Source: Brachyspira aalborgi
GTDB taxonomy: Bacteria; Spirochaetota; Brachyspiria; Brachyspirales; Brachyspiraceae
DNA: 64,000 nt
Assembly: GCF_008016455.1 (NCBI RefSeq)
Contig: NZ_SAXU01000001.1
Span: forward strand, 2,190,423-2,254,422
Direction of reading: 5' to 3'
Below are positions 14,732-16,505 of this stretch, piece by piece. The translations under genes were made by a program, and so were the position numbers. The notes beneath the pieces are model-generated. The model did no database searches. It had not been told where the DNA came from and was given only the letters and a program-made list of their open reading frames with translations. Numbering within the stretch: position 1 is the stretch's first letter; every line of letters starts with the position of its first letter.

Positions 14732-16021
14732 TTACTTTTCAATAGCTTTTTTCAAATCCGCTATCAAGTCTGAAACGGTTTCCAAACCTATGCTCAAACG
14801 AACTGTATTCGGCGTTATTCCCGCAGATTTCAACTCCGACTCGCTTAATTGAGAATGCGTAGTTGAAGCTGGATGAATAACTAAAGATTTTGAATCGCCA
14901 ATATTCGCCGTTATTGAATATAGAGTCAAACTGTTGCATATCTTTTTAGCCTCTTCATAACTTTGAGCCTCGAAACTTAAAAGTCCGCTCGCTCTTGAAT
15001 CCTTAAAATATTTTTTCAAAAGATTATGATAAGGACTCGAAGTTAAACCTGGATAGTTAACCTCTTTAACTTTTTTATGAGATTCCAAAAATTTTGCTAT
15101 TTCCAAAGCACTGTCGCTATGTTTTTGAATTCTCAATTCCAAAGTTTCCAAACCTTGAAAATGAATCCAAGCGTTTTGCGGGCTTAAAGAAGCTCCGATA
15201 TTTCTAAGCCATTCTATTAATATTCTTATACTAAAAATAGGAAGAGGAAGATTTGCATAAATCAAACCATGATAACTTTCATCTGGAGTGTTAAAAGCTG
15301 GATAACGAGAATTATCCTTAATAAGTTCGTTTAATCCTTCTCTTTCTATAACCGCTCCTCCGAGTCCGCTTCCATGTCCGTTTATATATTTAGTTAAGCT
15401 ATGAACGGAAACATCTACTCCGAAATCGAAAGGACGAAATAATATAGGCGTTGCAACAGTGTTATCGCAAATTGTAACTATTTTATGTTTTTTCGCTATA
15501 TCAGTTATGGTTTCAACATCCGCTATCGCTATTTGAGGATTTGAAAGACTTTCAAAGAATATAGCTTTAGTTTTATCGTCTATAATTTTTTCAAGACTGC
15601 TTAAATTGTCTATATCAAAAACTCTTCCTTCTATTCCGAATCTTTTCAAAACATGAACGAGCAAAGTTTGAGAGCCTCCGTAAATTTTATTTGAATAGGC
15701 TATATTATCTCCGTTTTGCGCAAGATTAACTAAAGAATAGAATACAGCCGAACTTCCGCTTGCAGTAGCGACTCCGAAAGCCCCGCCTTCTACAGCCGCA
15801 ATTCTTTTTGCAAGCATATCTACGGTTGGATTGGTAAGACGGGAATATATATTTCCCAATTCCTCTAAACTGAACCTAGCCGCAGCTTGTTCGGCGTTTT
15901 CAAAACTATAAGCCGTGCTTTGATAGATTGGAACGCTTAAAGTTCTCTGTCTATCGTATTCGTATCCCGCATGAAGCGATAAAGTATTTGTCGTAAAATT
16001 ATTGTTTGGTAAATTTGCCAT
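14732..16021 (-). CDS. metY: O-acetylhomoserine sulfhydrylase
   Basis: 429 residues, PLP-dependent Cys/Met metabolism family. TATASGSSAVFYSL-type substrate region, DNTVATP, and the PLP-lysine motif SVHSLTKYINGHGSGLGG are present. The length (about 430) and FDFGVDVSVHS favour MetY, which makes homocysteine from O-acetylhomoserine and sulfide, over cystathionine gamma-synthase (about 380). It begins with a good ribosome site (AAGGAGAAAAACA). A candidate leader peptide rich in Met codons precedes it by 108 nt on the same transcript, pointing to amino-acid-responsive control. Confidence 0.9.
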   Translation of the reverse strand: MANLPNNNFTTNTLSLHAGYEYDRQRTLSVPIYQSTAYSFENAEQAAARFSLEELGNIYSRLTNPTVDMLAKRIAAVEGGAFGVATASGSSAVFYSLVNLAQNGDNIAYSNKIYGGSQTLLVHVLKRFGIEGRVFDIDNLSSLEKIIDDKTKAIFFESLSNPQIAIADVETITDIAKKHKIVTICDNTVATPILFRPFDFGVDVSVHSLTKYINGHGSGLGGAVIEREGLNELIKDNSRYPAFNTPDESYHGLIYANLPLPIFSIRILIEWLRNIGASLSPQNAWIHFQGLETLELRIQKHSDSALEIAKFLESHKKVKEVNYPGLTSSPYHNLLKKYFKDSRASGLLSFEAQSYEEAKKICNSLTLYSITANIGDSKSLVIHPASTTHSQLSESELKSAGITPNTVRLSIGLETVSDLIADLKKAIEK

Positions 16022-16129
16022 TGTTTTTCTCCTTAAAATTTTAAAATTATAAATTAATGAACCAAAGAGATTTAAATTAAAATCTCAACTTAAAGCCTTT
16101 AAATATATAAAAATTGTTAAAATAGAATA

Positions 16130-16225
16130 TTAGCGCGCAACAACGCGCATCATCATAGAAAAAGCGAAAGAAAAATAAAATTTGCAGGATGCAATATTTG
16201 ATAAATTAAACAAATTTTTAATCAT
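16130..16225 (-). CDS. Candidate regulatory leader peptide of metY
   Basis: A 31-residue open frame (MIKNLFNLSNIASCK..., ending MMMRVVAR, stop) on the minus strand. It has a consensus Shine-Dalgarno AAGGAGG 7 nt before its ATG and lies about 50 nt downstream of a consensus promoter. Three consecutive Met codons sit 5 codons before the stop, and one Cys codon is at position 14. The last codons form a GC hairpin (GCGCG-TTGTTG-CGCGC), unusual in this AT-rich DNA. This is the architecture of translation-coupled attenuation of metY, either by Met availability or by a nascent-peptide mechanism. The function is inferred. Confidence 0.65.
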   Translation of the reverse strand: MIKNLFNLSNIASCKFYFSFAFSMMMRVVAR

Positions 16226-16278
16226 AAATATTCCTCCTTCTTTTATATTTTTCTTTGATTGATTAATTAATTGGATAA

Positions 16279-16306
16279 ATTATACATTATTTAAAAAAAA
16301 TGTCAA
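16279..16306 (-). promoter_or_regulatory. Promoter of the leader peptide and metY
   Basis: On the minus strand, TTGACA, 16 bp, TATAAT: a full consensus. It predicts a transcript starting near 16272 and a ~250-nt leader before metY. Confidence 0.85.
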
Positions 16307-16378: not shown

Positions 16379-16415
16379 AAAAATCCAAATTAAAATTAGA
16401 AAATCAGGAGTGTAT

Positions 16416-16505
16416 ATGCCTTCAGGAAGAAAAAGACTTCGTCAAAAGATGGCTACGCATAAACGAAAAAAGCGTTTACGCAAAAATAGGCATAAAAAGA
16501 AATAA
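16416..16505 (+). CDS. AURKAIP1/COX24-domain (mS38-like) small basic protein
   Basis: 29 residues, MPSGRKRLRQKMATHKRK and onward, over half Lys or Arg. The sequence matches the short bacterial proteins with an AURKAIP1/COX24 domain, related to mitochondrial ribosomal protein mS38 and thought to bind the small ribosomal subunit. It has a consensus promoter and a good ribosome site (AGGAG, 6 nt before the ATG), which supports real expression. It is easily missed because of its length. Confidence 0.85.
   Translation: MPSGRKRLRQKMATHKRKKRLRKNRHKKK

Follow-up and report, generated by a model that had tools for sequence, protein, structure and literature searches.

The window, that is, the whole stretch of 64,000 nucleotides of Brachyspira aalborgi DNA that was analyzed, carries on its minus strand metY (14732-16021), which encodes an O-acetylhomoserine aminocarboxypropyltransferase of 429 aa matching TIGR01326 with 570.7 bits (cut-off 495.1). 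Its ATG is found at 16021, behind the Shine-Dalgarno sequence AAGGAG (16029-16034). A putative cyclase gene (PF04199; 13847-14584, minus strand) follows directly 3' of metY, ahead of cysS. The upstream region contains, on the same strand, a promoter, a further Shine-Dalgarno sequence, and a 31-codon open reading frame (ORF) ending in MMMRVVAR and a stop. The promoter is made up of a -35 element TTGACA (16306-16301) and a -10 element TATAAT (16284-16279), with a 16-nt spacer. The Shine-Dalgarno sequence AGGAGG (16233-16238) precedes the leader ORF (16130-16225; MIKNLFNLSNIASCKFYFSFAFSMMMRVVAR, stop codon TAA), and a gap of 108 nt separates the ORF from metY. An earlier note on this DNA had already listed this promoter, a consensus Shine-Dalgarno sequence, and the 31-codon frame at this distance, and all of them can be read off the sequence. 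Divergent from the leader promoter, the plus strand encodes a very basic protein of 31 aa, MYMPSGRKRLRQKMATHKRKKRLRKNRHKKK (16410-16505), which we take to resemble the small AURKAIP1/COX24-type proteins.

Three Met control codons, ATGATGATG (16148-16156, minus strand), run directly into hairpin 1, GCGCGU-UGUU-GCGCGC (16133-16148), which starts from the G of the third and last Met codon and abuts the stop codon. A GC hairpin over the last codons had been announced in the earlier note, and one is present, but its stem has 6 bp, counting one U·G pair (-10.6 kcal/mol), and not 5 bp of GC only. On its 3' side, the stop codon and a pyrimidine-rich, G-poor tract, UAAUAUUCUAUUUU (16119-16132), form the counterpart of a tract richer in C than in G in Campylobacter. 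Hairpin 2, GAGAUUU-UAAUUU-AAAUCUC, also exists as the note had it, although at 16067-16086 instead of 16070-16089.

The sequence made of the Met triplet and hairpin 1 is unique in the 2.5 Mb genome, even with three mismatches allowed, and GCGCG-N6-CGCGC has a single exact occurrence in this genome, which is the leader site. CGC is a rare codon here, with 1 CGC for 72 AGA among the Arg codons of seven neighbouring genes. Being unique, containing rare CGC codons, and having been kept in B. catarrhinii amid diverged DNA, the leader block is beyond chance. Searches of the leader region with the Rfam covariance models gave no match to a SAM riboswitch, a T-box, or any other element, so that the absence of a SAM riboswitch proposed earlier holds, and the leader has no match among the NCBIfam leader peptide families. 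Two other matches to MMMRVVAR in the genus (L004, L005) were discarded, as they belong to transporter-permease-like coding sequence.

Among 29 Brachyspiraceae genomes, one other, that of B. catarrhinii Z12, has the gene (93% identity) together with its leader, and this brings the Brachyspira members of this leader type to two in the sets searched. The B. catarrhinii leader, MSSFISLNLLNNASCVFSFSLSMMMRVCAR, has 30 codons, and both frame and length are kept despite indels. Its -35 element TTGACA is similarly placed, its -10 element reads TATAAC, and its Met codons are identical. Alignment of the two DNAs reveals four conserved blocks: the leader Shine-Dalgarno sequence (GGAGGAA); a block reading ATGATGATGCGCGTT..TGCGCGCTAATAT.TCTATTT; hairpin 2, identical at 20 of 20 positions; and the metY Shine-Dalgarno sequence.

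Nearly all other Brachyspira possess another metY, the product of which is only 43-45% identical to the window MetY. The leader of these native genes is also rich in Met and Cys codons (e.g., MKTIIVMNKMFCLMQMCMFNNDGCK), as found at 22 loci, where it comes with a classical set of helices: 1:2 of 8-10 bp, 2:3 of 7-10 bp, and a 3:4 terminator of 8-10 bp with its U-run. Two native subclades have unlike 1:2 sequences (UCAUCGUUAU/AUAAUGAUGG versus AUGCAGUU/GGCUGCAU), with the pairing kept. The genus, the enzyme function, and the presence of a Met-rich leader ORF are thus common to the native loci and the window locus, but the leaders are unrelated, and the window locus has none of the 1:2, 2:3, and 3:4 helices. 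Judging from these sequences, control of metY by Met through a leader peptide appears to exist twice in one genus, by unrelated means. The earlier note had considered that a lack of the ORF in related genomes would speak against its reading. Most of the genus does lack it, but these species carry a different metY preceded by another Met-rich attenuator, and this second, unrelated leader is an argument for Met being the signal at the window locus too.

Outside Brachyspira, the best matches of the window MetY are from Helicobacter and Campylobacter, with identities from 81% down to 71%. A maximum-likelihood tree places the two proteins from Brachyspira as sister to that of Helicobacter sp. MIT 00-7814 (support 99/91), and the pair is nested inside the Campylobacter/Helicobacter clade, apart from native Brachyspira MetY. 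Judged by this placement and these identities, the window metY is not native to Brachyspira and was acquired from Campylobacterota. The upstream region of metY in Helicobacter MIT 00-7814, the nearest relative, has no leader; the donor itself would therefore be unsampled, or the leader would have been lost there. Several of the Helicobacter metY loci without a leader (among L040-L050 and L056) have palindromes, such as AATACAATATGTATT, near the promoter, each of which is perhaps a repressor site.

A leader of comparable position is known from Campylobacter jejuni. MetL, a peptide of 20 aa with 3 Met, was predicted in 2013 before metBA (cj1727c-1726c); according to the main text of that study, it is carried by a short RNA whose end lies past the leader stop codon, attenuation was proposed, and it is reported in C. 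jejuni, C. coli, and C. doylei only (Porcelli et al., PMC3847290). Passages of this main text on MetL contain no description of the hairpin. Translation of metL has since been detected as an initiation peak in retapamulin Ribo-seq in 2025 (PMC11955535). In addition, Term-seq of a C. jejuni strain without RNase Y located 3' ends 233 and 273 nt behind the 5' end of CJnc230 (PMC11187230); mapping on a related genome, with an uncertainty of about 10 nt, puts these ends (T2, T3) in the final codons of metL and 20-40 nt past the stop.

Comparison with Campylobacter loci extends this leader considerably. At 19 Campylobacter metY loci, a short ORF with a Shine-Dalgarno sequence lies upstream, a GC hairpin comes directly after its last Met codon, and the stop codon stands within this hairpin or shortly 3' of it. 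At a further Campylobacter locus (L137), the module is found about 340 nt upstream, after an apparent insertion. More distant MetY loci, with identities of 60% or less (L140-L151), have no leader. The window locus shares the features of this type, namely a short ORF with a ribosome binding site before metY/metB, several Met codons, and a MetY belonging to the same clade as Campylobacter metB/metY. C. jejuni-type genomes (L131-L134) likewise show the Met-rich ORF directly before the orthologous gene and the passage from the last Met codon to a 6-bp GC hairpin and stop. The Brachyspira leader differs from C. jejuni MetL by its occurrence in another phylum, its three consecutive Met codons, its peptide body, its stem sequence, and a following tract that is less C-rich.

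The register of the hairpin was examined by fixing the last Met codon of each ORF before looking at the stem. A 6-bp stem begins at the G of this codon in all 21 MetL-type metY leaders (19 from Campylobacter and 2 from Brachyspira), a number larger than that of independent events, as several of these leaders are close relatives; by comparison, such stems begin at 2.4% of other positions. Among the 21 leaders, 13 different hairpins can be told apart; their stems fall into 6 arm pairs that differ from one another on both sides, for example, GCGUGC/GCACGC, GCACGC/GCGUGC, GCACAC/GUGUGC, and GCGCGU/GCGCGC. The ends of the peptides differ at the same time (MRVVAR, MRAWHA, MHTLVC, MCALCA). Since the stems covary while the encoded residues change, the features that are kept are the RNA structure and Met. 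MetL, so far tied to the C. jejuni group, thereby becomes a leader type of wide occurrence, and gains a signature that can be tested, that is, a stem beginning at the last control codon. The likeness in position and structure to the Campylobacter leaders suggests that leader and metY were transferred jointly, so that a leader-peptide control element would apparently have crossed phyla with its gene, a non-homologous Met attenuator serving the native gene of the sister species.

We consider it rather probable that a MetL-type leader-peptide attenuator entered Brachyspira together with the Campylobacterota metY, and that the ribosome at the Met codons decides on hairpin 1 and on read-through. 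In the transcript from this promoter, the first ORF would close with three Met codons, and the GC hairpin and the stop would come directly after them. When Met-tRNA is ample, the ribosome would complete the peptide and leave, hairpin 1 would fold, and most transcripts would stop in or soon after the leader, leaving metY off. When Met-tRNA is scarce, the ribosome would stall at ATGATGATG; its footprint, covering the 5' arm, would keep hairpin 1 from folding, and transcription would read on into metY, providing homocysteine for methionine. Given the fixed register of the stem, this 5' arm must be covered by any ribosome held at the Met codon or codons. Met sensing by the leader is well supported by the comparison of sequences, and control of metY through the position of the ribosome relative to a hairpin, as first put forward from the sequence of the window, is strongly supported by the comparison with Campylobacter, B. 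catarrhinii, and C. jejuni MetL. We further infer that the ribosome stalls at Met, that transcription in Brachyspira terminates prematurely, and that hairpin 1 is the deciding element; how the hairpin works is likewise a deduction, since a conserved antiterminator and a U-run were both looked for and not seen. As no member of the MetL-type family has a U-run 3' of hairpin 1, its identification as a canonical intrinsic terminator was rejected. Hairpin 1 would rather be a sensor-coupled element, termination being due to the hairpin itself or to Rho.

Rho-dependent attenuation is a sub-variant of leader-peptide control, and a serious possibility, although we hold it for somewhat less than even. 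Once the ribosome has gone, Rho would load on the C-rich, G-poor RNA behind hairpin 1 and end transcription, and the hairpin would merely pause the polymerase or shield a trimmed 3' end. The missing U-run fits this model, as do the 136 C and 30 G counted in the 40 nt 3' of hairpin 1 over the 21 loci. The 3' ends of C. jejuni, within the approximation of their mapping, appear inside the C-rich tract, and the short RNA of this species could equally be a trimming product. Nevertheless, the tract is C-poor in the two Brachyspira (8 C, 3 G), and Rho loading alone leaves the start of the stem exactly at the last Met codon unexplained. Translational control, in which leader translation would expose a metY Shine-Dalgarno sequence otherwise hidden by the post-leader stretch or by hairpin 2 through its 3' arm, is quite improbable. 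In the window, a pairing of UCUCUUU, on the 3' side of hairpin 2, with AAGGAGA of metY is indeed feasible and would compete with this hairpin, but the partner lies elsewhere in B. catarrhinii and the pairing is not conserved; moreover, such masking would hardly tell a stalled ribosome from one that has finished.

The trp, his, and leu leaders resemble the MetL type in having a short ORF of the translated type, control codons for the pathway product, and a hairpin over the end of the ORF, but the MetL type has neither a conserved, mutually exclusive antiterminator nor a U-run terminator at the hairpin. The his/trp-like RNA switching suggested in the earlier note is, thus, not borne out. In its three-way form, the terminator would be hairpin 2, and the antiterminator would arise by pairing of the tract behind the stop (UAAUAUYUCU) with the 5' arm of this hairpin (GAGAUUUUA). 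The identity of hairpin 2 in the two Brachyspira amid diverged DNA speaks for this unlikely arrangement. So does the fact that about half of the loci show, 27-45 nt ahead of metY, a hairpin that has some U-run. Several loci, however, have no convincing hairpin 2; in B. catarrhinii, it is followed by AUAAGG instead of U, and in the window by a weak tail, UUUGGUUC (shuffle p 0.06). The predicted probability of hairpin 2 is equal in the stall and stop states at most loci; that in the window is 0.71 with the ribosome stalled and 0.63 with the ribosome at the stop, and there is no consistent shift across the family. A classical antiterminator was rejected on the ground that ribosome position does not consistently change hairpin 2 formation. 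Finally, an ORF and hairpin without any regulatory role, as chance features of the upstream region, could draw on the small number of Brachyspira members (two), but the register found in 21 of 21 leaders, the covariation, and the counterpart detected independently by Ribo-seq in C. jejuni (PMC11955535) make this extremely improbable.

The leader-peptide attenuator may serve other genes as well. The pattern ATGCACAC-N3-6-GTGTGC was scanned, along with controls, over 153 Campylobacteraceae genomes; it yielded 8 matches, every one at the end of a leader ORF, while the controls yielded 0. Of these matches, four belong to the metY leaders counted above, the remaining four standing ahead of other genes. 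In one genome (G167), leaders ending in SMMMHTLVC precede a Bac_luciferase-type monooxygenase (L185:460) and an MFS transporter (L186:433), which suggests a wider sulfur regulon in Campylobacter. In two others (G169 and G030; L189 and L190), a leader ending in TMSCCMHTFVCKNS precedes a Sulf_transp (YeeE/YedE) protein identified with Pfam, with a TusA gene behind. These loci suggest a regulon of sulfur genes with both Met and Cys control codons. A broader proposal is held more tentatively, at close to an even chance but short of it: the whole switch would be one covarying hairpin in fixed register with the last Met control codon, next to which some leaders have Cys codons; this attenuator would control several Campylobacter sulfur genes, and would have moved with metY across phyla into Brachyspira, whose related species use an unrelated, classical Met attenuator.

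Other Campylobacter matches (L187, L188, L191-L195) were rejected as leaders, since they lie within or beside ordinary coding sequence. The MetL-type hairpin is absent from Campylobacter LeuL leaders (L196, L199, and L200, upstream of leuA), which have a Leu-rich codon end, no hairpin, and then U-rich RNA; because of this, the LeuL mechanism probably differs from that of MetL. Another Met-rich mini-ORF, CJsORF19 (MMYQMR), is located before Cj0772c in C. jejuni (PMC11955535), and thus resembles the MetL type in preceding a gene related to methionine, here its uptake; a pattern search of ten Campylobacter genomes for a similar metQ leader gave no match. At L189 and L190, which are on the minus strand, the leader end reads MSCCMHTFVCKNS, the motif lies some 410-425 nt into the reversed stretch, and Cys codons stand just 5' of the hairpin. 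The spacer of about 100 nt between leader and gene is nearly identical at these two loci, whereas the leader bodies differ.
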